This document shows, piece by piece, positions 3,001-51,621 of a stretch of DNA of 64,000 nucleotides. The stretch comes from Diphasiastrum complanatum. Taxonomy: Eukaryota; Streptophyta; Lycopodiopsida; Lycopodiales; Lycopodiaceae. Made by a program: the position numbers and the translations under genes. The notes under the pieces were generated by a model. The model was not told the origin of the DNA. It was given only the letters and a program-made list of their open reading frames with translations, and did not search any database. Where the stretch lies: NCBI GenBank assembly GCA_029204225.1, contig CM055104.1, positions 25,125,285 through 25,189,284 on the forward strand, written 5' to 3'. Position 1 is the first letter of the stretch. Each line of letters begins with the position of its first letter.

Positions 3001-5821
3001 ACCCAAGTAGATAAATTTACACATGAATGGATGAATTACTGCCTATTATGATAAGTCTATGTGATACGTACACTTAAATATCAATTCATGCAAAAAATGC
3101 AATAGATGACGGCCTAAAAAACCATCATTTATTCTAGTTTATATGACAGTTTATCAGAAGCCGTCATTTATGCCAAAAATTATAGTTTTTTTGAAGTTTT
3201 ATAACTCCATGTGTAAATAAGTGGGCAAATAAAAATTGTTAGATGATATGTATTGGTGTTGAATCTGACAGTTTAGAACACGTGGATAGGTATAATATCC
3301 CATGCATAACCCAAGTAGGTAAATCTACTCATGAATGGATGGAGTACTATCTATTGTGATAAAGATATGTGATAAATAGACTTATATATCAATTCATGCA
3401 AAAAAATGGATTAAAGACGGCTTAGAAAAACCGTCATTTCTTCTGGTTTATATGACAGTGTTTCAGAAGCCATCATTTATGCCAAAAATAACGTTTCTTT
3501 AAGTTTTATGGCTTAATGGGTAGATAAGTTGGCAAATAAAAGTAGTTAGATGGATATAATAGTATAACATGCCCTTACATGGATATAAGTGTGTCATATA
3601 TTGTTTGATAAACAACAATGATATGTGTTAGTGTTGAATCCGACAATATAGAGCACATTGTATATATCAATTCATGCAAAAAAATGGATTAAACGACGGC
3701 CTAGAAAAACCGTCATTTAATTTAGTTTATATGACAGTTTTTGAAAAGTCGTCATTTATGACAAAAATAACGTTTTTTTTAAGCTTTATGGCTTAATGGG
3801 CAGATAAGTAGGCAAATAAAAGTAGTTAGATGGATATGATAGTATAACATGCCCTTAAATTGATATAAGTGTGTCATATATTGTTTGATACACGTCAATG
3901 ATATCTATTAGTGTTGAATCCGACAATATATATAACACAACGATAGGTCTAATATCCCATGTATAACCCAAGTAGGTAAATTTACACATGAATGGATGGA
4001 TTAATGCTTATTATGATAAGTATATGTGAGACATAGACTTAAATATCAATTCATGCAAAAAATCAAATAAATGATGGCCTAGAAAACCATCATTTCTGTT
4101 GCTTTTTATGATAGTTTTTCAGAAGCCGTCATTTATGCCAAAAATTACATTTTTTTTGAAGTTTTATGGCTTCATGGGTAGATAAGTGGGCAAATAAAAG
4201 CTGTTAGACGAATATGATAGTATAACATGCCTTTAAATCGATATAAGTGTGTCATATATTGTTTCATACACGTCGATGATATGTATTAGTGTTGAATCGA
4301 CAATATAGACACGTCGATAGGTATAATATCCCATGTATAACCCACGTAGGTATGTTCAAACATAAATGGATGAATTATTGCTTATTATAATACATATATT
4401 TGATACATAGACTTAAATATCAATTCATGCAAAAAATGGAGTAAATGACGGCTTAGAAAACCGTCATTTATTCTGACTTATATGACAGTTTTTCAGAAGC
4501 CGTCATTTATGCCAAAAATTACATTTTTTTGAAGTTTATAGCTTCATGTGTAGATGAGTGGCAAATAAAAATTATTAGATGGATATGTTAGTATAACATA
4601 CCTTTAAATTGATATAAGTGTGTCATATATTATTTGATACACGTCGATGATATGTACTGGTGTTGAATCCGACAATATAGAACCCGTCAATAGGTATAAT
4701 ATCCCATGTATAACCCAAGCAAAAATATTTACACATGGATGGATAAATAATTGCTTATTATGATAAATATATTTCATACATACACTTAAATATCAAAATA
4801 AATGATGGCCTAGAAAACCGTCATTTATTCTGGTTTATATGACAGTTTTTCAGAAGCCGTCATTTAAGCCAAAAATTATGTTCTTTAAAGTTTTATGGCT
4901 TAATGTGTAAATAAGTGGGCAAATAAAAGTAATTAGATGGATCCAATAGTATTATAACATGCCTTTAAATTGATATAAATGTGTCATATATTTTTTGATA
5001 CACATCGATGATATGTATTAGTGTTGAATCCAACAGTTTAGAACACGTCAATAGGTATAATATTCCATGTATAACCCAAGTAGGTAAATTTACACGTGAA
5101 TGGATAAATTATTGCCTATTATGATAACTATATGTGATACATAGACTTAAATATAAATTCAGGCAAAAAAGTGGAATAGATGACGGCCTAGAAAATCATC
5201 GTTTATTCTGGTTTATATGATAGTTTTTCAGAAGCCATCATTTATGCCAAGAAATAACATTTTTTTGAAATTTTATGGCTTCATGTGTAGACAAGTGGGC
5301 AAATTAAAATTGTTAGATGAATATGATAGTATAACATGCCTTTAAATTGATATAAGTGTGTCACATATTGTTTGATACACATCCATTATATGTATTGGTA
5401 TTGAATCTGACAGTTTAGAACACATGGATAGGTATATTATCCCATGCATAAGCCAAGTAGCTAAATTTACACATGAATGGAAGGATTACTACCTATTATG
5501 ATAAATAGACTTACGTATCAATTCATGCAAAAAAATGGATTAAGAGATGGCCTATAAAAACCGTCATTTATTCTGGTTTATATGACAGTTTTTCAAAAGC
5601 CGTCATTAATGCCAAAAATAATGTTTTTTTAAGTGTTATGGCTTAATGCGTAGATAAGTGGGCAAGTAAAAGTAACTAGATGGGGTGGTCATATATTGTT
5701 CCATACACGTCGATGATATGTATTAGTGTTGAATCGACAATATAGAACACGTCGATAGGTATAATATCCCATCTATAACCCAAGTAGGTATATTTACACA
5801 TGAATGGATGAATTATTGTTT

Positions 5822-5888
<67 letters not shown>

Positions 5889-7008
5889 ACATAGACTTAA
5901 ATATCAATTCATGCAAAAAATAAAATAAATGACGGCCTAGAACACCGTCACTTATTCTGGTTTATATGACAATTTTTCATAAGCCGTCATTTATGCCAAA
6001 AATTACATTTTTTTGAAGTTTATAGCTTCATGTGTAGGTGAGTGGGCAAATAAAAATTGTTAGATGGATATGATAGTATAACATGCCTTTAAATTGATAT
6101 AAGTATGTCATATATTGTTTGATACACGTCGATGATATGCACAAGTGTTGAATTCGACAATATAGAACATGTCCAACAAGTATAATAATTCATGTATAAC
6201 CCAAGTAGGTATATTTACACATGGATGGATGAATTATTGCTTATTAAGATAAATATATTTGATACATAGACTTAAATATCAATTCATGCAAAAAATGAAA
6301 TAGATGACGGCCTAGAAAACCGTCATTTATTTTGGTTTATATGACAGTTTTTTAGAAGCCGTCATTTAAGCCAAAAATTACGTACTTTAAAGTTTTATGA
6401 CCTAATGTGTAAATAAGTGGGCAAATAAAATCTAATAGTATAATATGCCTTTAAATTGATATAAATGTGTCATATATTGATTGATACACGTCGATAATAT
6501 GTATTAGTGTTGAATCCGACAATTTAGAATACGTCGATAGATATAATATCCCATATATAACCCAAGTAGGTAAATTTACACATGAATGGATAAATTATTG
6601 CCTATTATGATAACTATATGTGATACATAGACTCAAATATAAATTCATGCAAAAGGTGGAATAAATGACGGCCTAGAAAACTGTCATGTATTCTAGTTTA
6701 TATGCTAGTTTTTTCAAAAGCCGTCATTTATGCCAAAAGTTACATTTTTTTTAAAAGTTTTATGGCTTCATGTATAGATAAATGGGCAAATGAAAGTTTT
6801 TAGATAGATATGATAGTATAACATGCCCTTAAATTGATACAAGTGTGTTATATATTGTTTGATACATGTCGATGATATCTGTTAGTGTTGAAGTCGACAA
6901 CATAGAACACGTTGATAAGGTCTAATATCCCATCTATAACCCAAGTAGGTAAATTTACACATGAATGGATGGATTGCTGCCTATTATGATAAGTATATGT
7001 GAGACATA
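1..7008. repeat. CACTA-like palindromic tandem array, about 20 units
   Basis: About twenty diverged head-to-tail units fill this stretch, with spacing mostly near 365 bp (range about 290-430 because of internal deletions). Each unit has a core of two adjacent inverted repeats: ATGACGG-loop-CCGTCAT, followed after about 15 bp by ATGACAG or ATGACGG, a T-rich loop, and GCCGTCAT. Cores are visible near 345, 540, 900, 1265, 1575, 1950, 2300, 2680, 3110, 3415, 3695, 4070, 4445, 4805, 5180, 5540, 5930, 6305 and 6665. The rest of the unit is AT-rich and non-coding. Palindromes with GACGG/CCGTC arms are typical of subterminal regions of plant CACTA (En/Spm) transposons, where the element-encoded DNA-binding protein sits. 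That this array derives from a CACTA end is inference; no CACTA terminus was found. Confidence 0.8.
5828..5884. repeat. (TA)n microsatellite
   Basis: Uninterrupted TA dinucleotide run inside one unit of the tandem array, at the spot where other units read TTATTATAATAAATATAT. It is a local expansion of an already TA-rich segment. Confidence 0.95.
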
Positions 7009-12907: not shown

Positions 12908-13589
12908 TGTAAAAATTACAGCAAATAAGGATCCTAAAACACTTGAAATGATGAGGGAAACAATAGATTATGATTTCATAAGATTAGCACAAGTTGAACC
13001 ATCAAAATCCATCAAAAATCTATGCTTGAACCTCACTAAATGGCCCAAATCCTTGAAGAAGGCTTCACACGTGTGAAAGTACGGCCTCCCACAGTCTGAG
13101 TACTGTACACCAGACCTACATTCAATCCTATAATCATTAGTAATCACAAGTACTCAAACAATTATGAACATAGAGAGCAATTGCACCATTATGAGAGAAA
13201 AAACATGAAATTGCTTGATTGATTTTGGTGAGATATCATCACCTATATATACATGATCCATCACGGTTTTGGGCAGGTGTGAGTAGCCCTAAACCTATCC
13301 CTAATGCTAATTTTGGTGGACCTTTTATCCCTACCAAGTTAGGGTTGGAATCTTGGAGATCCCTCAACAATGCAAAAATTACCAAAAATAGCTCCTATTT
13401 TTTCTCCCTTGTATCTAAGCATAATTTGGACTCATTACAAAGGTTCTAACACTTAGATCTACTTGAGAACATCCTTATGAATGGAATCCTATGCTATTTG
13501 GCACGTGTGACAAGCCACATCATGACCATCTAACTATTTACAAGTCATATGACCAAAACTAGTCAAGCTAGAATTGTGAATTTTTAACA
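12908..13589 (-). repeat. Copia A1 3' LTR
   Basis: 682 bp, starts TGTAAAAATTACAGC and ends GAATTTTTAACA on the plus strand. It is paired with 18383-19064 and with the two LTRs of copy 2. Confidence 0.95.
13242..13251 (-). promoter_or_regulatory. TATA box in copia A LTR
   Basis: The minus strand reads TATATATAGG within the LTR, and the same sequence lies at the equivalent place in the three other family A LTRs. Its position and orientation suit the element's Pol II promoter; the start site is not determined. In the 5' LTR the matching site is near 18717-18726. Confidence 0.55.
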
Positions 13590-13605
13590 CTCCTCCTCAC
13601 TATCT
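13590..13605 (-). promoter_or_regulatory. Copia A1 polypurine tract
   Basis: The minus strand reads GTGAGGAGGAGTG immediately before the 3' LTR, the expected plus-strand primer of reverse transcription. Copy 2 has the same tract at 47337. Confidence 0.8.
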
Positions 13606-16600
13606 AGCTTGGTTCAATCATTGCTTTACTAATCACTCCAAGTGATGATCTGAACTTCATAAAAGGTGTCTTTTGAAGTGGTTTAGTAAGTAGATCAGCT
13701 ACACATTCATTGCTTGGAACATGCTCCAAAGCAATCTCCTTGGCTTGCACCATTTCTCTCACAAAGTGATGGCATATCTCAATGTGCTTAGATCTTGCAT
13801 GGAAGATTGGGTTAGATGCAAGGTGTTGGGCTGATATATTGTCATTGTAGATGATTGGTGCCTCCTCTGAATCCATGATCTTTAGTTCCACCAATAATCT
13901 CTTGATCTAAAGTACCTCCTTTGTAGTGGTTGTCAAAGCTTTGTACTCGGCCTCGGTTGAAGATAGAGATATAGTTTCTTGCTTTTTTGAAAGCCATGAA
14001 ACCACACTTTCTCCTATGAAAGTTGAATAGGCACTTGTTGATTTCCTATCCCTCTTGTCCCCTGCAAAATCTGAATCACTAAATGCATGAAAGTTAATCA
14101 CATCTCCTCTATATAGAATCCCAAAATCCAATGTACCCGAGATGTATCTTAGAATCCTCTTAGCATTTTTCCAATGGATATTCAATGGCTTTTGCATGGA
14201 TTGGCTCAACCTACATACACTAAAGCTAAGATCTGGTCTAGTTATAGTGATCCACATTAAGGAACCTATAAGTTGCCTAAACAAAGTGATGTCCATGAAG
14301 GATCTTTCATCATCTTCATTTGGCACTTTTACATCTTGCTCCATTGGTGTGTCAACACTTTTGCATACTTCCATCTTAAACTTCTTCAAAAGACTTTGAG
14401 CATATTTTACTTGACTTATAAAGATAAAATCAGACCCTCTAAGTACTTCTATGCCTAAGATGAAGTGAAGACACCCTAGATCTACCATCTTGAACTCTAA
14501 GGATAGATCTATCTTGATTTTTTCAATACCATCAACACTATTTCCACTAATGATGATGTCATCTACATAAATGAGTAAAAGTACAATACCAACATCATCA
14601 AACTTAATGTAAAGAGTAGGATCATATTCACTTTGAACAAAAGAAAGTGAAATAAGATAGCAATGTAGTCTTGAATTCCAAGATCTCGAGGCTTGCTTCA
14701 AGCCATAGATGCTTCTTTGGAGATGGCATACTTTGTTCTCCATTCCATGCTTGATGAACCCTTGTGGCTGCTCCATATAGATATCCTCTTCCAAAAAACC
14801 ATTCAAGAAAGCATTAGAGACATCCATTTGACATAGAATCCATCCAAAATGTGATGCAAGTGCAATGATTAGTCTTATTGTGACCATCTTGGCCACGGGT
14901 ACAAAAGTTTCCTCATAGTCTATCCCTCTCTCTTGAGCATAACCTTTTGCAACTAATCTTGCTTTATGTTTGTTAACACTCCCATTTGCATTCAACTTAA
15001 GCTTGAAGACCCACTTGCATCCTATTACATTCCTTTGAGGTCTCTCAACAAGCAACCAAGTTTCATTCTCAATCAAGGCATCATACTCATCCAACATAGC
15101 TTTATACCATTCTTTGGAGTTCAATGCATCTTCAACATTAGACGGTTCTTCAAAACTAGATAAAGCATAAGAAGTGGATGAGATACCCTCAACTTGCTGT
15201 CCTTTGCCTTGATATGTGAGCCTTGATGGCTCCACTTTTGCCCTTGAAGATCTCCTTGGTGTGATAGGTGGGTTTGGTGCTTGCTCCTCCATGAGCTCCT
15301 CCTCAAAACCAAGATCTTGATCGTCGGCCATCTTCTTCTTGATTGTTGGAGCACTTGAGCCTTCTTCAAGCATATGAATATGATGTTCATCAAAGATGAC
15401 ATCCCTTGAAACAACAAATTTGTTTAAGGATGGGAGATAGACTTTGTAGCCCTTGCTTGAGCTTGCATATCCAAGCATGATCCCTCTTGTGGAAGATGGA
15501 TCCTCCTTGGTTCTTGTTTCCAATGGCACATGCACATAACATATACACCCAAAAACTTTCAAGTGATTAAGATTGGTTTTCTTTCCATACAACATCTCAT
15601 AAGGAGTTTTGCCTTCAATTGCTTTGCAAGACACCCTATTCATCAAGTAGTTTGCACATACAAGAGACTCACCCCAAAAGGATTTGGGCAAACAAGCATC
15701 TAATCTTAAAGCCTTAGAACATTCACATAATGTTCTATTCCTTCTTTCAGCAACTCCATTTTGTTGAGGAGTGTAAGGACAAGAAGTCTCTTTCTTGATC
15801 CCTTCCTCCTCACAAAAGGCCTTGAACTCATTGGAGATGAATTCTCCACCATTGTCACTTCTAAGAATCTTGATGCTATGATTATGATGCTTTTCCACAA
15901 ACAACTTGAACTTTACAAAAGTATCAAATACTTGAGACTTGAGAGAAAGTAAGAACACCCAACAATATCTTGAGTAGTCATCAATGAAGGTTAAAAACAT
16001 GGATGAACCTCCATTAGATTTGGTGCTAGCAATGTGCACATATGAGTGTATGAGTTCAAGAGGATGAGATGACTTTGTGAGGGAGTTAGGAAACACCTTC
16101 TTATGTGCCTTGGATAAGGCACAAGCTTCACAAACCTTGTCTTCCTTCCCAATAGACCTTGGTAGGCCTAAAGCATACTCCTCCTTGATCATAGCCTCCA
16201 TGGAACCCGAGTTGACATGTCCAAGTCTTTTGTGCCATAAAGTAAAGGTAGATATCTTGCTCTTCTCGGCCAACATGACAACATTAGTATCCACAAATGC
16301 ATCCAGCTTATAAAGTTTGCCAAGTCTAGTGCCCTTAGCCACTATCTTACCCTTCTTCTTGATGAAACATTCATTTGAAGCAAAGTCAACATTGAAACCA
16401 TTGTCTACCATTTGGCCAACACTTAGTAGATTCTTTGTTATTGTAGGAATGTACAAAACACCTTCTATGTTGATCTTTTTGGAAGATCCTAAGCAAAGGG
16501 GAATGCTACCAGCTCCTTCAATCTTACAAGCTTCATCATTTGCTGTATAGATAGAGTTTATAGGTCCATCATAAGATAAGAGAGAAGAGAAAAACTCCCT

Positions 16601-17571
16601 TTTACTAGTCATGTGTGAACTAGCACCCGAGTCAATCCACCAAGGATCTTCTCCTTTGAAGTTTGTTGAAGAAAATATGGACATCATGAGAGAGTCCTCA
16701 TGTGAACTCTTCTCCTCCTCCTCTTTGCTCATGTTGGCTTGGCTTTGATCTTGCTTCCTCTTGAAGCATTCCGAGGCATAATGCCCCATCTTGCTACAAT
16801 AGTAGCACTTCACCTTTGATTTGTCCTTCTTGACTTTGGTGGTTGATGGAGATGCCTTTGGGGGTCCTTCTTGATCCTCAAGCTTCATAGACTTCTTGAA
16901 TGTTGATCCTTTGCCTTTGGACTTGCCTTTGCCTTTGGTGAAGAGAGCTTGGTCATCTCCACCTTGGATGGAAAGCCTATCCATCCTCTCTTGCATTTGG
17001 CTCCTTCTTGATTCCTCGGCCATGAGTGTGCCTTGGAGTTCTTCAAGTATGGGTAGCTACCCATAATTGCATGTCCCTGAACCAAATTGTCAAATTCAAA
17101 GCTTAGTCCATTCAATATGAGTTGAACAAGCTCTTCATCCTTGATAGGGTCACGTATAAAGGCTAGCTCTTTGTTCAATTCCTTTATTCTTATTACAAAA
17201 GTATGTGCACTCTCTCCTTTCTTTTGATAGCTTCTATAGATTTGATTCTTCAAAGCTAACATTCTAGTTTGGTTCTTGGATTCATAGACCTTTTGCAAAG
17301 TCTCCCAAGCATCTTGAGCTGAAGTGCAATCTCCTACCTCTCTTGAGAGTTCATTTGCAACATTCATTTTTATGCAATGTAGTGCAACATTGCACCTCTT
17401 GATGTATTTGGCTTTTTCTTGAGGATGAATAGGTTCACCCTCCTTACCATTTACAATTTCCATCAGATCTTGCATGATCATGATAGATTCCATTCTAACT
17501 TTCCATATGGAATAGTTAGTTTTGTTGAGCCTTTCATTAGTATCCAAAAGATATGCATTTATAGATGCCAT
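13604..17571 (-). pseudogene. Copia A1 gag-pol polyprotein, one frameshift and one stop
   Basis: The gag start at 17571 begins MASINAYLL and has the copia LNKTNYSIWKVRM motif. After the frameshift near 17058 the frame continues through a CCHC zinc knuckle (CYYCSKMGHYASEC, about 16770-16805), protease with WIDSGASSHM (about 16640), and integrase with HKRLGH zinc-binding start, DDYSRYCW, RSDNGGEF and GVAERRNRTL. RT follows with LVAKGYAQ, DVSNAFLNG and YVDD, then RNase H with DSDFAGD and SSTEAEY. A TAG at 13907-13909 splits off the last 97 codons, and translation would end at 13604. The product would build virus-like particles and copy and integrate the element. Start choice: first Met before the conserved gag motif. 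Confidence 0.92.
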
Positions 17572-18369
17572 CTAGTCTCCTAATCAAGGACTTGACACAA
17601 ATGAAGGTTACTTCTATTGATTTGATTGAAGGTCTACCTTATCCCACTTCTTAGGGACCTGAAAAGATCAGTAATAGACTTCCTATAAAGATCTAAGAAT
17701 GATCTCTAACAAAATCAAATCATAGAATACTAGAAACAATGCACTTGCTTGATTGAAGTAGACAATACTAGTAGAATTGCCCCTCTTTCTATAAAGAACA
17801 TTAAAGCTTCCAAATGATCTGATAAAGAGTGAATTTCAGCAACCTAATATACTTCCAAAATAACTTGTAAAAGATCTAAATGGAACTTAATGAGGATGCA
17901 ACACAATCTACTATCCAATCACAAGCAAAACATGATCAAAATTGATGAAAAATTGATCTAATTTGGTGCATAAGTCAAGCAATGGTTGGACTGAACCTAA
18001 ATCACTTTAGGAGGTGCCTACTACACCTTAGAACAGCCTTGAAGAGTCCCCAAAACTCTGATCTTCCCTCTCCTTGAATGCTAGAAAGCCTTCTCTATGA
18101 AATCACCTCCAAAACTCGCTTAGAAATCAATGCTTGGAGCAAGCAAAACTTGCTATCTTGGTAATGTGAATTGAATTCAACTTTGCCTCTGGTTTTAGAC
18201 ACCTAAACACCTGCAAATGAAGTCACACAACACCAATCTCCAATGTATTTGAGTCACTTTGAGTTCTAGAATCAATACTAGATGCTAAGATCCAATCTAC
18301 ACAAGATTTAGATCAAAAATTGTGATCAAATTGAATGAAAACCAAGGATTTAGCTCATTTCAGCCTTTA

Positions 18370-18382
18370 GGCTCTGATACCA
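18370..18382 (-). promoter_or_regulatory. Copia A1 primer-binding site (tRNA-iMet)
   Basis: The minus strand reads TGGTATCAGAGCC directly after the 5' LTR, complementary to the 3' end of plant initiator methionine tRNA. Confidence 0.9.
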
Positions 18383-19064
18383 TGTAAAAATTACAGCAAA
18401 TAAGGATCCTAAAACACTTGAAATGATGAGGGAAACAATAGATTATGATTTCATAAGATTAGCACAAGTTGAACCATCAAAATCCATCAAAAATCTATGC
18501 TTGAACATCACTAAATGGCCCAAATCCTTGAAGAAGGCTTCACACGTGTGAAAGTACGGCCTCCCACAGTCTGAGTACTGTACACCAGACCTACATTCAA
18601 TCCTATAATCATTAGTAATCACAAGTACTCAAACAATTATGAACATAGAGAGCAATTGCACCATTATGAGAGAAAAAACATGAAATTGCTTGATTGATTT
18701 TGGTGAGATATCATCACCTATATATACATGATCCATCACGGTTTTGGGCAGGTATGAGTAGCCCTAAACCTATCCCTAATGCTAATTTTGGTGGATCTTT
18801 TATCCCTACCAAGTTAGGGTTGGAATCTTGGAGATCCCTCAACAATGCAAAAATTACCAAAAATAGCTCCTATTTTTTCTCCCTTGTATCTAAGCATAAT
18901 TTGGACTCATTCCAAAGGTTCTAACACTTAGATCTACTTGAGAACATCCTTATGAATGGAATCCTATGCTATTTGGCACGTGTGACAAGCCACATCATGA
19001 CCATCTAACTATTTACAAGTCATATGACCAAAACTAGTCAAGCTAGAATTGTGAATTTTTAACA
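18383..19064 (-). repeat. Copia A1 5' LTR
   Basis: 682 bp, identical in length to 12908-13589, with about four visible substitutions between them. Confidence 0.95.
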
Positions 19065-30941: not shown

Positions 30942-32301
30942 TATGAAAAATTTGCAAAAATCTAGGTTGGCAATGTTGTTTTATGTTTGTGAGTACATTT
31001 CACACGTGTGGAGCATGTTCCCACTTATAATGTTGACTTTAGGGGTGTCAAGGTTAGATCCAAATTTGGTGCTAGATAGCTTGTTTGAAAGCTAGTTTTG
31101 TCTAGTTTTTGTAGTAATGGTGGAGCCAATCGAAAGTTATAAGCTTTTGAAGAGGGTTAGGTAGGGCATCTAAACCTATATGGACACATTTGGTTTGATC
31201 AAATCTTGCTACTTTGACCAAAAAATTTAAAAAGAGGCTTGCCAATGTCATCTATATGAGATCTAGTCATCATTTTGAGGTCAGAGCCACATCGTTTCTT
31301 ACAATTCCATTGTATTAGAGTGATTTGTAGATTATTTGAGTGTTTCACACGTGCCAAAAATAGTTTGACCCAAACTTTGCCTATACTCCATCAATTGATG
31401 AGAGGTTGATCTAGTTTGAGAGAGATTGGTAGAGCTAGTGAGATCCATCCCACATTTTGTTGCAAGATCTTGCATAGGAGTTGGTAGTACACCTTTCAAG
31501 TTTCTTATAGTGAGAGAGAAGAAAAATTTATTGTCTCATTATAAGAAGTCTTCACTAATTTTGATGGCATCCATGGGTTCCTATCTATTGGAATCTAGTG
31601 AAAGATTATCTACCTCCAACTATTCTATTTGGAAGGTTAGAATGGAGTCAATCTCGATACTCCAAGATGTGATGGACATTGTACTTGGAATTGAGGAGGA
31701 GCCTCAAGTACTTCAAGAAGTACAAAAGTATAAGAAGAGAACTAGGATGGCCCTCCATTATATCAAGATGAATGTCTCTAATGAGATTTTGAGAGAGATT
31801 GGTGCTTGTACTTCAGCCAAGGATGCTTGGGATACTCTCAAAGCAATCTATGAGGCCAAAAATACCTAGTCTAGGCTTATCACTCTTAGAAATCAAATAT
31901 TTCAAATTTGTCAAAAGAGTGATGAGAGTGCACTAATTATGTTTTAAGAGTGAAAGACATTCATAGGGAGCTTGTTTGTATTGGAGATTCCATCAAACAA
32001 AGTGAGCTAGTCCAAGTCATACTCAATGGAGGATGAATATGAGAATATTGTCCAATTATCAAGGAGGAGCTACCAACCTTTGAGGCTTTGCAAGGAGTCA
32101 AGGCATGAGAACAAGCTACTAAGGAAGGAAAAATTGTCACTTATTCATAATGGTGATGGTAGAGTTCTATCTGTCAAGCACAAAGAGAGGAGCAAAAAGC
32201 AACACCAACACTTCTCTAAGGACAAAGCAAAAGATCAAGATGAAGAGGAGGATGATTCTTTTCAAGATTCTACTTCAAATAAGAAGAAAAAATATGTTAA
32301 G
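30942..32301 (+). mobile_element. Copia family B: LTR start, leader and gag (5' piece)
   Basis: The LTR starts TATGAAAAATTTGCAAAAAT, a mutated form of the TGTGAAAAATTGG start seen at 7009 and 60423. It is followed by a leader and gag. The element is split at 32302 by copia C and continues at 35281. The LTR 3' boundary was not located. Confidence 0.65.
31564..32301 (+). pseudogene. Copia B gag, disrupted
   Basis: The start MASMGSYLLESSERL is followed by STSNYSIWKVRM and MALHYIKMNVSNEIL, then ACTSAKDAWDTLKAIYEA, the copia gag (UBN2-type) core. A TAG at about 31867 (CAG-like context) and frameshifts near 31935 and 32010 interrupt it. The C-terminal part is lysine-rich (KDKAKDQDEEEDDSF) and breaks off at KKKKYVKC, the first Cys of the zinc knuckle, where copia C is inserted. 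The knuckle resumes at 35286. Confidence 0.85.
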
Positions 32302-40745: not shown

Positions 40746-41035
40746 TAATATTATTTTCTAAATTCTTTACGCATCTTCCCACACTACTTTCTATGTAAAT
40801 GAATGCACCTTAGTTTAGTCACATCAAACTTCACTAGTATTTAACCACAGTTAGAATATAATTTTTCAAGATGTTGAAATATTCTCTCCCAATAGTTGGG
40901 AACACTAAAAAATTTGAATTAGGAGTGACATTTCTGAAAAAAAACCTACGCCATCTCTATCTCCAGCAGAGTCATTAGCACCATCTCCAGCTTTGTTATT
41001 GTCATTGTGTTGTTTGTTACTAAACTACTGTACTG

Positions 41036-43812
41036 ATGACAAAGCTTTATCATCTTCATGTGGACCTATCAATAGAATATGCTCCGCTCAGGACCAGAGA
41101 TTCAAAGCAACCCAGATTGTCAACTTCTGATATGGTCCGATACAAGGAGGAAGAGATAAAACATGTAGATTTATGGTCATCAAGAACATTGTATCCTATT
41201 GATCCATGTTCATTGCAGCATTCAGATTTTCATTCGGTGAGTCAGTTAATAATCTATATGTGTCATGGTAAAAATGGCCTTTTGGGTTACTGTGAGAATT
41301 TGATGCTCTATGGGAATGCACATTCAATGCAAAGAATACATTATTTGGAAGAGGAATCAAGGAAAATATCAAAGGAGTGCGAAGAAAAATCTACAAAGAT
41401 GAAAACTTGTTTGGATGAAAATGAGATGCTCAAGGAGGAGATCCAAAGGCTGAAATCTTCTTTGCATCATTATACAACTAGTAATGATGAGATAAAAATT
41501 GCATTTCAATCCATGCGTATCTCATATTTGTCTCTTGTTAAAGATATGGAGGTGCTCAACAGAAAGGTCTGAAGCAACAAGAGAAAAAGACTGGTAAACA
41601 AGGATATATGTGATCTATGATCCAGAGGAGGTCATAGAAAAAGACGAATCCGTGCATTCAAGTAAGTTATAGCTTATTTGGTACTAAAAATTGCTTGAAC
41701 TTTTTGATTTATTCATAATCACTAATTTTGTTATTTATTCATTTCAACTTTCTGTTGACTTGTTTATTATATATTGTTGTGAATACTATGAGTGTCCTAA
41801 TTTCTACTGACATTTTCATAAACATCATGTCTGCAATGCAGATCAGCATTGGTTGTTGAAGACCATTTGGCCGATGAGATTTCAATTGGAAACTCACTAG
41901 GCTCTATCTTGACTTCTAAATCTATGAAACCAATGTTAAATAATAACAAAATGAAAAAGATTAAGACTTCAGTTACTGATAGCATTATGGATGAAGTTGG
42001 AAAAATATTAGACACTACATTGCTTCAGGGGGCATGTGACTTTTCTAGCATCAGTAGGGAAGCATATGCAACAATGTTTAAGATGATAAAGGAGGCATTT
42101 GCACAAGTAAATATTAAAAAGTTTCCAATCCCACGACCATTTCATCTTATAAAAAAAAAAAGGCATGTTAAACCATGGTATGCAGACAATAGTTGGTAAT
42201 CCATCTCATATCAATGAAGTGTATTGCTCGAAAAGAGAAAGTCTAACATATAACAATTCCAACAATTTATTTATTGACATTAATCAGCTATTAACATTCA
42301 TCATAAATTTTCACGGTATTACAAATGAGAATGTCAATAACAAGTTGATAGTTGTTCTCAAGTTAGATGAGTCTGAAATTATAAAAGGACAAAAAATGGA
42401 AAGAGTCAGTCTCACGATCATGAATGGAGCACTTTCAAATTCAGAAGACTCAGAAGGCCTCAATTTTAGTGTTCAATTAGAAAATGGTATTTGGTGGTTG
42501 GCAACATTTTAGGTAAAGCAATTCCTTTGCATAATAAATAGGGATAATCATTTGAATATGGATTTCATATCTAAAATCTTCTCTGTGTTAATATTATGAG
42601 GCTGATCACGTTTTTGTATTCTCTTATAGGTGCTGAAAGAAGACCATAACATTCTCTCATGGATATTTAATAGAATATCATATCCTGCCACCATAAAAAA
42701 TTACATGGAGGGAGTTCCACTCAATATTCCTGGAATTGGCACTTTCAACATTGAATGGCATTTAGCAGGAGATCTGAAGACATTAAAATGTATGTTCAAT
42801 GTATCTCATGGCGCTAACTCTAAACACCCTTGTTTGTACTACATGAAAACAGCAAAAGACATGACAAGGAGTACAGGAATATCAAGAGATCGAGAAGATT
42901 CTAATTGGAAACCTATACTACCGATTCCTCTATGAAATGTTCATATCTGTACATTGCATGCAGAGGTGCGTATTATAGAAAAAATAATATATCTTCACAT
43001 CTTGTTTGCATGGAATTCCGAGCCAGAGGCCTTTGCAAAGGAAGTTGTTTCCAAATTAGAGGATGTGTTGTCCAAAGCAGGCTTACATAAAGGCCACATT
43101 AAAATAAAAAAAGATGACAAGTTATCAGGTAAAACAGGAAATATTCCATGAAAGCCGAGCATTGTAGGATCTAAAGCTCGAAGATTTTTATCAAATTATT
43201 CTGGCAAACAATCTAAGATTCAATAGACGGTTTGGAAAGAAATTATTGCAGCAACTCAAGATTTTGAAGAAGAAAGTTCTACTCGTATACACAAAGTAGA
43301 AGTTTGGAAAAAGTTAGACAACACGGTGAAATACTTGAGAAAAGATAAATTTTCAAATATTGATGTTCAAATGATATAGAAAACAACTAATGAATTTGTG
43401 GATGCAGTTCAGAGTACATGGGATGTTGATCATATAACACATTACATGGTAAGATTTTGATTTTACACTACGATAGACAAATATGTGCAATTAAATTAGA
43501 TACTTTTGGTATTGATTTAGATTATGTTGTTATGACATGCGGCACATATTACGACGTCATTCGACATTTTTTGCAAGAAATAGTGGAAGTCTTATTATAT
43601 GGTCATCGCAAGGAATGGAAAAATCTCATTGGCAAGCAAGAGCGACATTTCATAAAAGTACACAACATGGCGGGACTAGCACAAAAAACAGCTATATACT
43701 ACAACTTTTCCAATGGTTTTACAAAAGAATCCAAATTCGTCATAATACAAAATCGACGGATTATAAAAAATTTCAAAAAGCATGCAAATTTATACAAGCC
43801 AGTAGGCTATAG
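41036..43812 (+). pseudogene. Gene X, copy A: unrecognised multi-exon protein
   Basis: I do not recognise the family by name. Exons, with GT-AG introns at 41662-41841, 42513-42629 and 43449-43542: (1) an N-terminal segment ending in a coiled coil (EESRKISKECEEKSTKMKTC, then ENEMLKEEIQRLKSSL); (2) 41842-42512; (3) 42630-43448 with EWHLAGDLKTLKCMFNVSHG, then HPCLYYMKTAKDM, then VHICTLHAEVRIIEKI and DDKLSGKTGN; (4) 43543-43812 with WSSQGMEKSHWQARA. The Asp-containing GDLKTL stretch beside HPC-x-x-(Y/C) and a later LHAE helix could be an RNase H-like transposase core, but this is inference. Damage: an extra A in an A11 run at 42151, stops at 42510, 42933, 43150 and others, and an AG-to-GG acceptor at 43541-43542. 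The start is not certain. Confidence 0.55.
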
Positions 43813-43872
43813 ACACACAATAAAATTTTGTAAATTAATTAAAAATATTTACAAAGTACAATTCAACAGTAT

Positions 43873-44999
43873 CTAATCTGCTTCCGATATTTTTTCCAAT
43901 GAAAGTTGCAACTTAGAATCATGCAATAATTTTCTTCTTTCGTATGGATCCAATAGCTCATAGTTTTCATGCTTACTCAGATCAACGTAAGTAGCACACA
44001 CTGCAAAATGAGATGATCTGAGCATGGAATTCACTGGTCCATATCCTAAAATTTTAACCGCAATAGTTTTCTTTACAAAAATTATTTTATGCACCTTATT
44101 AAAATTATGTCCTCCAAGAAAATGAGATAGTGTCTTGATTGTCATAATCATAGTTTCACCATGTTGATGAAACTTTGAATGGGCAACACTTATCTCATTA
44201 TTCTTGAAGGACTTTAGATAGTGTCCGAGTGCATGACCTCTTGAAAATTCTCCGCAGAAGATCTCTGCCCTCCTCGACGAATTGCGAAATCATCAAGGAA
44301 AATTGTTTCCTGAAATGATAAAAAACAAAGTAAGCTCCAATATATAATCTGACATAACAAATCTACTAGTACTTGATAAGAGACAAAAACTTATGCATTC
44401 GGCTTTGTCTTCTCTGATTACTGTCTCTCCATCAATATTATGTCCACCTTTTGATGTCAATATTGTTAGTGAATAGACAGTTGGCCGTGGAAAACCAAGT
44501 TGGCTTTGGATTGTAAGAAACTCCTCCTCATAAAGTAGATCATCTTCTTTGCGCATTTCCTCCACAGACATTTTCAAGCAATCTTTCCCTGAATAAAACT
44601 TATCATTATGTACATTGTCAACACCAGAGAGAAGATCATCAACATCAAAATCAATTATATCCAAAAATTTATCAAGCTCTTTGCTCAAAATGCAAAGAGT
44701 CTCAGCTTCAATGAAGTCAAAAAGATCCGATATATTTGATATTGTCTAAAAGGAATTATAATTTATAATATAAGTAGGCAAAGTGATCAAAGATTTATCA
44801 GAAGGAGAAATGGTAGTGGGTGTTCTAGGGCCTATAAAAGTAGCCCTATTTCGGACAGGATCAAAATCAGAACAATCATCTAAATGAACACTCGTGTCAA
44901 TAAAAAATGTATCTATATCTACAATCTATGACTTTTCAGACTTTGTACCACTAGAAGAAGTTGCTTCAGAAGTGGAGGGCACAGAGTCCGAATCGTCAG
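43873..44999 (-). pseudogene. Gene Y, copy 1: unrecognised two-exon protein
   Basis: Minus strand. Exon 1 (about 44999-44395) is Ser/Asp-rich at first, then has LCILSKELDKFLDIIDFDVD and EEEFLTIQSQLGFPRPTVYS. Exon 2 (44309-43873) has LDDFAIRRGG, a basic segment, NNEISVAHSKFHQHGE, KIIFVKKTIAVKILGYG and TYVDLSKHENYELLDPYERR, ending at TAA. The intron (44310-44394, 85 bp) begins ATAAGT where copy 2 has GTAAGT, so the donor is lost. In-frame stops also occur (near 44925 and 44747) and exon 2 needs a frameshift near 44235. No known family is recognised. It lies tail-to-tail with X copy A, with only 60 bp between stop codons. Confidence 0.55.
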
Positions 45000-45009
45000 T
45001 AATATTGAT

Positions 45010-45985
45010 GTAAATACTGATGTGCTCTGGGATTCTTTTATTGGCCAAAATACATCTACTGATGAATCGATCCCTATAGAGGAGTCTAAATGTCTTTTTA
45101 ATTTGTTTGTATATTATATAAATGACAATGTATATTCTACTACAGCTGATTTATGTCTGTTTTCTTACTATCGTGAAGATGAGATTCTATGTTTATTATC
45201 CGGCACAATTTCCGAATTCTCTGACTTTGTAGATTTTGAAACAGATGACCTTGTTGCTAGAATTGATTTTGATGATGAGGAGGGACTTATGATCGGTGAA
45301 GAGTGCTTGACTAAGACTTTATCAAATATTGTTGAGGATGGACGAGGCAGACCATCCGATGAAGAATTCGTGGCATTTCAATCCCAGATGGGCTTCTCTC
45401 GTCCATCATTAATGCATTTCAAGGATGATTCCACTTTAGTAGGTGGTCATTATATTGATCATTCTGATCTGGTTGCTGCTGATGATGAAGAATGTGTAAG
45501 TGTTTAAACTTCCTTGCATTAGAATGTTCTTAACTACTGAATGTATTTTTTTTTAACATATTTCTTATTGCAGGATGCTCTCATAATTGATGATTTTGCA
45601 GCGAGAAGAGGTGGTTTCAGACGACATGCATCCTCGTTCCAGAGGAATAGTGGACTTGGCCACCATCTTAGGCGTTTCCTGAAGAATGAGATCTATATTG
45701 CTCATTCGAAGCTAAGCCCAGTTGGGGAGAGTTTGATACTGGCAGTTAAAGCTTTAGGACATAAATTTGTTAAGACAAATAAGATCATTTTTGTCAAAAG
45801 ATCTTATGTTTTGAACATTTTAGGTTTTACTAATGGGAATGTTTCTTAAGAAGCTCCCATTATTCATTGTACTCTACTTATATTGAACTTAGTGGAAATA
45901 AGGATAATGCACATCTATTAGATGCATACTCTAGCAGAGAATTTCTTCATGAAAATACTGCCATGGAATTCGACACACAAGCTAA
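45010..45985 (+). pseudogene. Gene Y, copy 2: unrecognised two-exon protein, better preserved
   Basis: Exon 1 (to 45495) reads NVNTDVLWDSFIGQNTSTDE, then LCLLSGTISEFSDFVDFETD and DEEFVAFQSQMGFSRPSLMH, a clear paralogue of copy 1. The intron is 45496-45573 (GTAAGT...TTGCAG, 78 bp, phase 0). Exon 2 has DALIIDDFAARRGGFRRHAS, LGHHLRRFLKNEIYIAHSKL, GESLILAVKALGH and KIIFVKRSYVLNILGF. A TAA at 45847-45849 stops it, but another frame then continues with TYIELSGNKDNAHLLDAYSS, matching the copy 1 C-terminus, so a stop plus frameshift removed about 45 residues. Conserved motifs across both copies: DDFAxRRGG, IxxAHSK, KxxFVKxxxxxxILG. Function unknown. The first methionine in exon 1 is at 45022; upstream exons may exist. 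Confidence 0.55.
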
Positions 45986-46654
45986 TGATGAATAATGGAC
46001 ACTTTGTATTTTGTTATAATACAATCAATACATTTACATTGAGTATTTCTTCTCTCTTGTTCAATGAATTTGCAAGCAATTCTGAACATGTCATGATTTG
46101 ATGACAATGATGATTGAAGGTCTTTGTTATCTTCTGCTCAACAATCATCTAATTTTCTCTTCTTTTATGACTCTTACATGCTTTTCTAAACTTGATGTAT
46201 TGTGTGGACTTTGTTATATGTCGAATCTGAACTCTGTAGTAGAACCACAGAAACAATTGACAAATGTAGTTTCATTTTTTATTGGTTCCTCCATGTGGTG
46301 TATTTCGATGAAATGATGCTCGTGCTTGCCAATGTGACTTCTCCATCCCTTGTGATGACCATACACTCAAGCTTCCATATGTGTTTGCAAAAAATGTTGT
46401 CTGATCTCTTAGTATGTGCTGCATATGTCAAAACCATAACGTTAGTCTTATGTTTAGATCTAAATATATATGAAAAATTGAAAGCATCTTGAAGAATTTA
46501 TACTAACCATGTAATGAGTGATGTGATCTTCTCCCCAATGTTTTGATACTGCATTAACAAACTCGACACAAGTCCTTTGGACAGCTTTCTTATCAATATC
46601 AGAGTATTTATCTTTTCTTGAAATAGCAATCATACTATCAAGATTCTTCCATAC

Positions 46655-47336
46655 TGTAAAAATTACAGCAAATAAGGATCCTAAAACACTTGAAATGATG
46701 AGGGAAACAATAGATTATGATTTCATAAGATTAGCACAAGTTGAACCATCAAAATCCATCAAAAATCTATGCTTGAACCTCACTAAATGGCCCAAATCCT
46801 TGAAGAAGGCTTCACACGTGTGAAAGTACGGCCTCCCACAGTCTGAGTACTGTACACCAGACCTACATTCAATCCTATAATCATTAGAAATCACAAGTAC
46901 TCAAACAATTATGAACATAGAGAGCAATTGCACCATTATGAGAGAAAAAACATGAAATTGCTTGATTGATTTTGGTGAGATATCATCACCTATATATACA
47001 TGATCCATCACGGTTTTGGGCAGGTATGAGTAGCCCTAAACCTATCCCTAATGCTAATTTTGGTGGATCTTTCATCCCTACCAAGTTAGGGTTGGAATCT
47101 TGGAGATCCCTCAACAATGCAAAAATTACCAAAAATAGCTCCTATTTTTTCTCCCTTGTATCTAAGCATAATTTGGACTCATTCCAAAGGTTCTAACACT
47201 TAGGTCTACTTGAGAACATCCTTATGAATGGAATCCTATTCTATTTGGCACGTGTGACAAGCCACATCATGACCATCTAACTATTTACAAGTCATATGAC
47301 CAAAACTAGTCAAGCTAGAATTGTGAATTTTTAACA
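46655..47336 (-). repeat. Copia A2 3' LTR
   Basis: 682 bp, nearly identical to 12908-13589. Confidence 0.95.
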
Positions 47337-47350
47337 CTCCTCCTCACTAT

Positions 47351-48922
47351 CTAGCTTGGTTCAATCATTGCTTTACTAATCACTCCAAGTGATGATCTGA
47401 ACTTCATAAAAGGTGTCTTTTGAAGTGGTTTAGTAAGTAGATCAGCTACACATTCATTGCTTGGAACATGCTCCAAAGCAATCTCCTTGGCTTGCACCAT
47501 TTCTCTCACAAAGTGATGGCATATCTCAATGTGCTTAGATCTTGCATGGAAGATTGGGTTAGATGCAAGGTGTTGGGCTGATATATTGTCATTGTAGATG
47601 ATTGGTGCCTCCTCTGAATCCATGATCTTTAGTTCCACCAATAATCTCTTGATCCAAAGTACCTCCTTTGTAGTGGTTGTCAAAGCTTTGTACTCGGCCT
47701 CGGTTGAAGATAGAGATATAGTTTCTTGCTTTTTTGAAAGCCATGAAACCACACCTTCTCCTATGAAAGTTGAATAGGCACTTGTTGATTTCCTATCCCT
47801 CTTGTCCCCTGCAAAATCTGAATCACTAAATTCATGAAGGTTAATCACATCTCCTCTATATAGAATCCCAAAATCCAATGTACCCGAGATGTATCTTAGA
47901 ATCCTCTTAGCCTTTTTCCAATGGATATTCAATGGCTTTTGCATGGATTGGCTCAACCTACATACACTAAAGCTAAGATCTGGTCTAGTTATAGTGATCC
48001 ACATTAAGGAACCTATAAGTTGCCTAAACAAAGTGATGTCCATGAAGGATCTTTCATCATCTTCATTTGGCACTTTTACATCTTGCTCCATTGGTGTGTC
48101 AACACTTTTGCATACTTCCATCTTAAACTTCTTCAAAAGACTTTGAGCATAGTTTACTTGACTTATAAAGATAAAATCAGACCCTCTAAGTACTTCTATG
48201 CCTAAGATGAAGTGAAGACACCCTAGATCTACCATCTTGAACTCTAAGGATAGATCTATCTTGATTTTTTCAATACCATCAACACTATTTCCACTAATGA
48301 TGATGTCATCTACATAAATGAGTAAAAGTACAATACCAACATCATCAAACTTAATTTAAAGAGTGGGATCATATTCACTTTGAACAAAAGAAAGTGAAAT
48401 AAGATAGCAATGTAGTCTTGAATTCCAAGATCTCGAGGCTTGCTTCAAGCCATAGATGCTTCTTTGGAGATGGCATACTTTGTTCTCCATTCCATGCTTG
48501 ATGAACCCTTGTGGCTGCTCCATATAGATATCCTCTTCCAAAAAACCATTCAAGAAAGCATTAGAGACATCCATTTGACATAGAATCCATCCAAAATGTG
48601 ATGCAAGTGCAATGATTAGTCTTATTGTGACCATCTTGGCCACGGGTGCAAAAGTTTCCTCATAGTCTATCCCTCTCTCTTGAGCATAACCTTTTGCAAC
48701 TAATCTTGCTTTATGTTTGTTAACACTCCCATTTGCATTCAACTTAAGCTTGAAGACCCACTTGCATCCTATTACATTCCTTTGAGGTCTCTCAACAAGC
48801 AACCAAGTTTCATTCTCAATCAAGGCATCATACTCATCCAACATAGCTTTATACCATTCTTTGGAGTTCAATGCATCTTCAACATTAGACGGTTCTTCAA
48901 AACTAGATAAAGCATAAGAAGT
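47351..48922 (-). pseudogene. Copia A2 pol remainder: RT and RNase H
   Basis: Minus strand. RT begins near NSKEWYKAMLDEYDALIENE and runs through WVFKLKLNANGS, LVAKGYAQERGIDYEETFAP, DVSNAFLNG and YGLKQASRSWNS. At 48356-48358 a Tyr codon has become TAA (copy 1 reads TLYIKF here). The frame then continues with YVDD, DLGCLHFILGIEVLRG, RNase H DSDFAGD and SSTEAEYKAL, and the C-terminus at 47351. Unlike copy 1, the Trp codon of KEVLWIKRLL is intact. Protease and integrase are deleted at 48922. Confidence 0.9.
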
Positions 48923-49710
48923 GGCTCAAGATGCTTGGGAGACTTTGCAAAAGGTATATGAATCCAAGAACCAAACTAGAATGTTAGCTTTGAAGAATCA
49001 AATCTATAGAAGCTATCAAAAGAAAGGAGAGAGTGCACATACTTTTGTCCTAAGAGTAAAGGAATTGAACAAAGAGCTAGCCTTTATAGGTGACCCTATC
49101 AAGGATGAAGAGCTTGTTCAACTCATATTGAATGGACTAAGCTTTGAATTTGACAATTTGGTTCAGGGATATGCAATTATGGGTAAGCTACCCATACTTG
49201 AAGAACTCCAAGGCACGCTCATGGCCGAGGAATCAAGAAGGAGCCAAATGCAAGAGAGGATGGATAGGCTTTCCATCCAAGGTGGAGATGACCAAGCTCT
49301 CTTCACCAAAGGCAAAGGCAAGTCCAAAGGCAAAGGATCAACATTCAAGAAGTCTACAAAGCTTGAGGATCAAAAAGGACCCCCAAAGGCAACTCCATCA
49401 ACCACCAAAGTCAAGAAGGACAAATCAAAGGTGAAGTGCTACTATTGTAGCAAGATGGGGCATTATGCCTCGGAATGCTTCAAGAGGAAGCAAGATCAAA
49501 GCCAAGCCAACATGAGCAAAGAGGAGGAGGAGGAGAGTTCACATGAGGACTCTCTCATGATGTCCATATTTTCTTCAACAAGCTTCAAAGGAGAAGATCC
49601 TTGGTGGATTGACTCGGGTGCTAGTTCACACATGACTAGTAAAAGGGAGTTTTTCTCTTCTCTCTTATCTTATGATGGACCTATAAAGTCTATCTATACA
49701 GCAAATGATG
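48923..49710 (+). pseudogene. Copia A2 inverted gag-protease segment
   Basis: Plus strand. The frame reads AQDAWETLQKVYESKNQTRM, then KELAFIGDPIKDEELVQLIL, the zinc knuckle CYYCSKMGHYASEC and protease WIDSGASSHMT, up to YTANDA. It keeps the gag frame across the position where copy 1 has a one-base deletion (here ATGGGTAAGCTACCC). It is opposite in strand to the rest of the element and would be read antisense in element transcripts. The frame ends at 49730 just past the junction. Confidence 0.9.
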
Positions 49711-49955
49711 CAATCTCCTACCTCTCTTAAGAGTTCATTTGCAACATTCATTTTTATGCAATGTAGTGCAACATTGCACCTCTTGATGTATTTGGCTTTT
49801 TCTTGAGGATGAATAGGTTCACCCTCCTTACCATTTACAATTTCCATCAGATCTTGCATGATCATGATAGATTCCATTCTAACTTTCCATATGGAATAGT
49901 TAGTTTTGTTGAGCCTTTCATTAGTATCCAAAAGATATGCATTTATAGATGCCAT
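49711..49955 (-). pseudogene. Copia A2 gag N-terminus
   Basis: Minus strand, MASINAYLLDTNERLNKTNY through IKMNVANELLREVGDC, then the frame runs into the inversion junction. It is the same as copy 1 codons 1-80. It is the only gag piece in the element's own orientation. Confidence 0.9.
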
Positions 49956-50766
49956 CTAGTCTCCTAATCAAGGACTTGACACAAATGAAGGTTACTTCTA
50001 TTGATTTGATTGAAGGTCTACCTTATCCCACTTCTTAGGGACCTGAAAAGATCAGTAATAGACTTCCTATAAAGATCTAAGAATGATCTCTAACAAAATC
50101 AAATCATAGAATACTAGAAACAATGCACTTGCTTGATTGAAGTAGACAATACTAGTAGAATTGCCCCTCTTTCTATAAAGAACATTAAAGCTTCCAAATG
50201 ATCTGATAAAGAGTGAATTTCAGCAACCTAATATACTTCCAAAATCACTTGTAAAAGATCTAAATGGAACTTAATGAGGATGCAACACAATCTACTATCC
50301 AATCACAAGCAAAAAATGATCAAAATTGATGAAAAATTGATCTAATTTGGTGCATAAGTCAAGCAATGGTTGGACTGAACCTAAATCACTTTAGGAGGTG
50401 CCTACTACACCTTAGAACAGCCTTGAAGAGTCCCCAAAACTCTGATCTTCCCTCTCCTTGAATGCTAGAAAGCCTTCTCTATGAAATCACCTCCAAAACT
50501 CGCTTAGAAATCAATGCTTGGAGCAAGCAAAACTTGCTATCTTGGTAATGTGAATTGAATTCAACTTTGCCTCTGGTTTTAGACACCTAAACACCTGCAA
50601 ATGAAGTCACACAACACCAATCTCCAATGTATTTGACTCACTTTGAGTTCTAGAATCAATACTAGATGCTAAGATCCAATCTACACAAGATTTAGATCAA
50701 AAATTGTGATCAAATTGAATGAAAACCAAGGATTTAGCTCATTTCAGCCTTTAGGCTCTGATACCA

Positions 50767-51448
50767 TGTAAAAATTACAGCAAATAAGGATCCTAAAACA
50801 CTTGAAATGATGAGGGAAACAATAGATTATGATTTCATAAGATTAGCACAAGTTGAACCATCAAAATCCATCAAAAATCTATGCTTGAACCTCACTAAAT
50901 GGCCCAAATCCTTGAAGAAGGCTTCACACGTGTGAAAGTACGGCCTCCCACAGTCTGAGTACTGTACACCAGACCTACATTAAATCCTATAATCATTAGT
51001 AATCACAAGTACTCAAACAATTATGAACATAGAGAGCAATTGCACCATTATGAGAGAAAAAACATGAAATTGCTTGATTGATTTTGGTGAGATATCATCA
51101 CCTATATATACATGATCCATCACGGTTTTGGGCAGGTATGAGTAGCCCTAAACCTATCCCTAATGCTAATTTTGGTGGATCTTTCATCCCTACCAAGTTA
51201 GGGTTGGAATCTTGGAGATCCCTCAACAATGCAAAAATTACCAAAAATAGCTCCTATTTTTTCTCCCTTGTATCTAAGCATAATTTGGACTCATTCCAAA
51301 GGTTCTAACACTTAGGTCTACTTGAGAACATCCTTATGAATGGAATCCTATGCTATTTGGCACGTGTGACAAGCCACATCATGACCATCTAACTATTTAC
51401 AAGTCATATGACCAAAACTAGTCAAGCTAGAATTGTGAATTTTTAACA
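50767..51448 (-). repeat. Copia A2 5' LTR
   Basis: 682 bp. On the minus strand TGGTATCAGAGCC (50754-50766) follows it as primer-binding site. Confidence 0.95.
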
Positions 51449-51621
51449 CATACATCAACTTTTAGTACTCTGGTTTTGCCATCTTTCTCAAAATCCCGAG
51501 TGGAAACAATAATATCTGTCCAAACTGAGTGTTGAATATTAGAAACCTTACCAGTATGATTTGATAGGAAACGATGTGCTTTTGCTCCTCCTATGCTTGG
51601 GTCCTCTATCCATCGGTGCAC

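Follow-up and report, generated by a model that had tools for sequence, protein, structure and literature searches.

The 64,000-nucleotide window analysed here, from the lycophyte Diphasiastrum complanatum (contig CM055104.1, positions 25,125,285 to 25,189,284), contains two mirrored pairs of convergent genes, X and Y. These are very probably the decayed remnants of two related copies belonging to a highly abundant DNA-transposon family that carries a predicted relative of RAG1, a likely partner gene and a histone gene of its own, and that inserts without target duplication at four of four checkable sites. The element is bounded by terminal inverted repeats (TIRs), has several genes and many copies, and shows ratios of non-synonymous to synonymous substitution (dN/dS) below 1. 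An earlier note on this DNA had described a two-gene cassette present twice as an inverted pair, which was either the coding content of a transposon, with X transposase-like and Y its partner, or an expanded host gene family.

That description was confirmed, with corrections. The stops of X1 (43,810–43,812) and Y1 (43,873–43,875) are separated by 60 bp, and those of Y2 (45,995) and X2 (46,149) by about 150 bp. Self-BLAST of the window recovers the mirror orientation: 43,338–43,798 matches 46,618–46,162 inverted (67.8%), 43,155–43,306 matches 51,600–51,449 inverted (67.8%) and 43,772–46,086 matches itself inverted (56.6%). Both X copies contain WSSQGMEKSHWQARA, both Y copies contain the motifs DDFAxRRGG, I-x-x-AHSK and KIIFVK, and Y1 and Y2 share the position of an intron (about 45,496–45,573 in Y2). 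The claim of a cassette present twice stands for the mirrored pairs themselves, but X2 is split by a long terminal repeat (LTR) element and stops or frameshifts disrupt each of X1, X2, Y1 and Y2; they are therefore fragments, not four working genes. The left arm (41,017–44,940) aligns to copies fetched from elsewhere in the genome at about 58–64% DNA identity. It holds X1 (41,037–43,812, + strand; several exons, internal stops) and Y1 (43,873–44,745, − strand; two exons, a frameshift near the start of exon 2), delimited from open reading frames and translations and, for X1, homologues. The right arm (45,003–46,654 plus 51,449–51,600) aligns at about 83–90%. It holds Y2 (45,003–45,995, + strand; 5′ truncated, a frameshift in exon 2), placed by open reading frames, translations and similarity to the fetched copies, and X2 (− strand), placed by self-BLAST, translations and the same similarity, with a 3′ part at 46,149–46,654 (internal stop) and a 5′ part at 51,449–51,600 (truncated at 51,600). 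We refer to the right arm as subfamily A and the left as subfamily B.

Because the arms differ in identity to the fetched copies and all four genes are broken, the mirrored layout is most simply read, from sequence comparison, as two old fragments of different subfamilies lying side by side. A functional composite unit, X1Y1–Y2X2, might be suspected from the edges of similarity to the fetched copies, as both arms stop at nearly the same Y position (44,797–44,940 and 45,003) on either side of a junction at 44,941–45,002. We judge it very improbable, as the arms belong to different subfamilies (with identities to the fetched copies of about 60% and 88%), all the genes are broken and no alignment crosses the junction among 18 loci, which were all picked by a match to Y2, with no genome search for the junction made. 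The shared stopping point of the Y1 and Y2 fragments (44,797–45,003) might be a coincidence or reflect a common mechanism of breakage.

We searched the genome from which the window derives (1.74 Gb, 5,176 contigs) with pieces of the predicted proteins; only the best 150 places were scored in each case, and first-look candidates are not counted copies. For a 91-residue piece of Y2, all 150 scored places match at 88–100% identity (5,906 first-look candidates), and for a 91-residue piece of X1 all 150 match at 87–100% (7,446 candidates), with X1 relatives at 87–96% amino acid identity over the 91 residues. In the 20 neighbourhoods of the best Y matches that were fetched for comparison, X lies tail-to-tail with Y in 18; the other two (L011 and L018) have no X match. 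Two pairs, L012/L013 and L016/L017, show 100% identity in alignment, and the match figures of L021 and L022 do not differ, so about 17 of these loci are independent.

Copies of subfamily A have exact ends. Similarity between copies breaks off at one base, ...CTCTAATG, in all ten right ends examined (two pairs among them duplicates), and three copies retain both ends: L024 (7,634 bp), L023 (8,594 bp) and L019 (6,812 bp). These have TIRs of about 35 bp that start with CATTAGA, giving termini of the form CATTAG...CTAATG; the inverted repeats that the earlier note had asked about are present in the right-hand subfamily. Across the genome the 31-base end, with at most one mismatch, was counted 881 times in forward and 910 times in reverse orientation, against 0 for a reversed control. 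End pairs spaced by 2.6 and 5.4 kb point to non-autonomous derivatives. One end pair 32 kb apart (L054/L055) has mirror-image flanks and therefore marks not one element but either an extensive inverted duplication or an artefact of assembly. At L015, two left ends (717 and 1155) share a 20-bp flank at a distance of 438 bp; flank and end were probably duplicated together in tandem.

Uninserted relatives of the flanks were available for all three complete copies (L018 for L024, window position 31,737/31,738 for L023 and, for L019, other copies of the family itself). In each, the left and right flanks meet with no base gained or lost; for L019, the alignment runs cleanly through the point in 7 of 10 copies, stops short of it in two and has gaps nearby in one. 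The CT/CT around L023 and AG/AG around L019 are ruled out as 2-bp target duplications by these comparisons. A fourth copy (C1:48368841-48378291) is apparently flanked by TCA/TCA, and its joined flanks match uninterrupted places: all ten best matches span the join, six at equal length (for example C10:39099693-39099892, 200 for 200 bases at 96%) and four differing by 1–2 bases. TCATCA already stands in the uninserted sites and predates insertion; the TCA/TCA is therefore no target duplication, which rules out a 3-bp duplication and leaves 0 bp in four of four insertions with empty sites. Three further end pairs do not share flanks (flank comparison only). The alternative of an expanded host gene family, in which X and Y multiplied by ordinary duplication with no mobile element, draws on X homologues in other plants and algae (Klebsormidium and Adiantum among them) and on the resemblance of some copies to segmental duplicates, but it conflicts with the exact termini common to the copies (1,791 matches to the end, the control giving 0), with the precise empty sites and with the thousands of first-look candidates. 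Termini and empty sites rule it out for subfamily A, and we regard it as extremely unlikely.

High copy number, exact inverted ends, empty sites, the convergence of X with Y in most fetched copies and the predicted fold of X bear out the transposon proposal, although with four genes rather than two. Copies bounded by TIRs carry Z(+), H(−), Y(+) and X(−) in that order, in L023 at element coordinates 467–1592, 3759–2766, 4587–6095 and 8067–6217; L019 is a complete copy without H. Among 18 assembled loci, 13 gave a match to H and 7 a match to Z, many loci having been fetched too short to include them; in L026, H lies on the other strand. All 16 H/Y pairs at most 5 kb apart are divergent, 13 of them at a spacing of 2.2–2.33 kb, in an illustrative set of 60 H and 22 Y places picked from the listed matches with pairs in view, which is not a census. 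L011 has Z and a diverged H (51% in the fold) in the same relative arrangement, so both genes probably predate a split between subfamilies. Z has no recognisable domain in Pfam or among PDB sequences, and its dN/dS is 0.22 and 0.37 (5 and 4 copies).

H has by sequence the fold of histone H3 followed by an extension of about 206 residues. A composite H matches PDB H3 at E = 6.4e-21; part of the L023 H matches Pfam Histone at E = 2.8e-5 (24.8 bits, under the curated cut-off of 26.4); and a full-length search found five proteins at E ≤ 1e-15, covering 27–37% of H, roughly the histone part. H is marginally nearer to H3.1 (47 of 85 residues identical) than to Arabidopsis CENH3 (43 of 85). In the genome all 150 scored places match at 83–100% (6,524 candidates). 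H may serve the element as a chromatin component. That it is instead a passenger, a host H3 gene captured once and of no use to the element, is rather unlikely in our estimation: transposons do capture host genes, L019 does without H and 5 of 10 H-fold copies contain stops, but dN/dS over those ten copies is 0.22 in the fold (0.55 in the extension, 5 copies), at least 15 of the 150 listed H places keep a stop-free frame of 330–347 codons, and the arrangement with Z persists in L011. Because the element encodes an H3 variant, the distribution of its ends on chromosome C1, the only one assessed, is of interest: exact ends cluster at C1:64.97-66.68 Mb and C1:95.0-100.6 Mb, and a single 2-Mb stretch holds 28 of the 99 ends listed there, whereas none of 300 uniform shuffles put more than 10 into such a stretch. 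These clusters could mark a centromere or a segmental duplication.

The transposase-like character that the earlier note gave to X agrees with its predicted structure, which has a RAG1/Transib fold with RAG1 as the best structural match and also resembles the HzTransib structure. In an alignment of 39 rows, D411, D508, C528/C531 and H591 are nearly invariant, and the H(4)H and E of the last motif are present in the homologue P0002 and in window X1 (HILRRH ... QGMEKSHWQAR). X would be the transposase and Y, convergent with it in 18 of 20 copies, its likely partner. An intact Y (L016) has 479 residues in two exons, with dN/dS of 0.22 in exon 2 (18 copies, 14 stop-free) and 0.46 in exon 1 (12 copies, 6 stop-free); in the Y and X comparisons pairs with dS ≤ 0.02 were dropped and stop codons were skipped, and there was no neutral control. 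A search of 5.8 billion proteins, which depends on shared 5-residue words, found no relative of Y at E ≤ 10; Y also has no Pfam match at E ≤ 10 and only weak, unhelpful matches to PDB sequences. Among viral contigs, none of 24 pattern stretches examined encodes an X relative. One predicted protein of Adiantum nelumboides (P0077) joins a DUF7794 domain (33–272) to a C-terminal X-type stretch, and is a fusion or a gene-model artefact.

Several observations weigh against this reading. The X model is of moderate quality (predicted local distance difference test (pLDDT) 72.6, predicted template modelling score 0.56), falling below a pLDDT of 50 across residues 758–812, which hold the last motif. 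In that motif H761 is H in 2 of 32 rows, H766 in 3 of 21 and E785 is E in 4 of 4; few rows extend there, which we attribute to the truncation of most predicted proteins at an intron, and window X2 reads HILRDQ, with Q in place of the second H. An X profile matched no RAG1 or Transib among PDB sequences, nor did X give any other helpful match there, and Pfam RAG1 had no match in the genome at E ≤ 10, where no control gave signal either. dN/dS in three parts of X is 0.90, 0.57 and 0.46 (8, 10 and 13 copies; 2, 4 and 9 stop-free), the first (Xa) having only two of eight copies stop-free; part of X is thus under selection that is either weak or masked by decay. The transposase role of X is a prediction. 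The Y model, built from two window fragments, has a pLDDT of 44 and is unusable as evidence of fold; H lies on the other strand in L026; and the evidence from ends and empty sites covers subfamily A, as subfamily B ends were not found (a look for the pattern in L011 gave nothing clear).

The nearest parallels are the RAG-like transposons (ProtoRAG/RAGL), for which PMC7204232 describes two convergent genes within inverted repeats and 5-bp target duplications; the convergent partner gene (18 of 20 loci) is shared, and X has a predicted RAG1-type core. That our element is a true ProtoRAG, with X as RAG1L and Y as RAG2L, is nevertheless improbable. Duplications are 0 bp here, the ends start CATTAGA rather than with a heptamer-like CAC (CACTWMC in protostomes, PMC7204232), Y has no Pfam match and is unrecognised as RAG2 (kelch propeller, PHD finger), X gives no RAG1 profile match (without a control), two further genes are present, one a histone, and RAG1 and Transib could merely be those members of a wider group whose structures have been solved. 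Transib itself differs in its 5-bp duplications (PMC7204232), in the lack of a sequence-level match and in lacking the extra genes. Transib-like proteins have already been reported from plants (PMC9435367), and finding a RAG1/Transib-type transposase in a plant is therefore no novelty in itself.

The 5′-CA..TG-3′ ends are those of the CMCT clade (CACTA/EnSpm-Mirage-Chapaev-Transib, including Plavaka, ESTA and Lanisha), whose signature in PMC12730594 includes 2–5-bp duplications. The 0-bp insertions (4/4) depart from it, and four X relatives (P0001, P0002, P0003 and P0072) match no Pfam transposase family at E ≤ 10, in a search without a positive control in which HMMER drops most weak matches. 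CACTA/EnSpm has CAC..GTG ends and a 3-bp duplication (PMC12730594), against CAT..ATG and 0 bp here. Given the absence of duplication, we do not file the element as a CMCT member, though it is built like one. Some PIF/Harbinger relatives, a group we take to be Spy, share the 0-bp trait. They are DDE-type DNA transposons with reported 0-bp duplications (PMC12730594) and a transposase of a different group; X matches RAG1/Transib. Fungal TET/JBP-carrying transposons and plant VANDAL anti-silencing proteins likewise pair a transposon with a gene acting on chromatin or silencing (PMC12730594), but the cargo here is a core histone variant. Among the literature matches listed (most subscription papers and Repbase lay outside the scope), we found no like case of a transposon-encoded histone, a lycophyte RAG1-like element or a duplication-free TIR transposon.

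Other features of the window are repeats. The element inside X2 is a copia-like LTR retrotransposon (46,655–51,448, − strand; from self-BLAST and sequence) whose LTRs (46,655–47,336 and 50,767–51,448) are 99.6% identical and which is flanked on both sides by CATAC (46,650–46,654 and 51,449–51,453). A second copy at 12,908–19,064 is about 98–99.5% identical in pieces, the middle segment (48,924–49,710) of the first being inverted relative to it, and much of this element also has a match in L025, at about 99%. In a tandem array at 3,690–7,008, a 361-bp unit is repeated about nine times (76% matches).

RAG1 is the enzyme that cuts antibody genes, and the origin of this recombinase is generally traced to a transposon in which a RAG1-like gene had a convergent partner. 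We tentatively hypothesize, with rather less than even confidence, a land-plant RAG1-type lineage with a transposase and a new partner protein, in which a self-encoded H3 variant packages or marks the element's own DNA to escape silencing or steer insertion, and in which both strands are joined at the same point, leaving no target duplication. A plant element that has this layout, but with a partner of no recognised family, would point to a convergent two-gene design that arose more than once or predates RAG2. Insertion at 0 bp by a transposase of RAG1 fold would bear on the distance required between the two strand transfers, and a high-copy transposon family with its own core histone variant would offer a direct test of whether mobile DNA writes its own chromatin.
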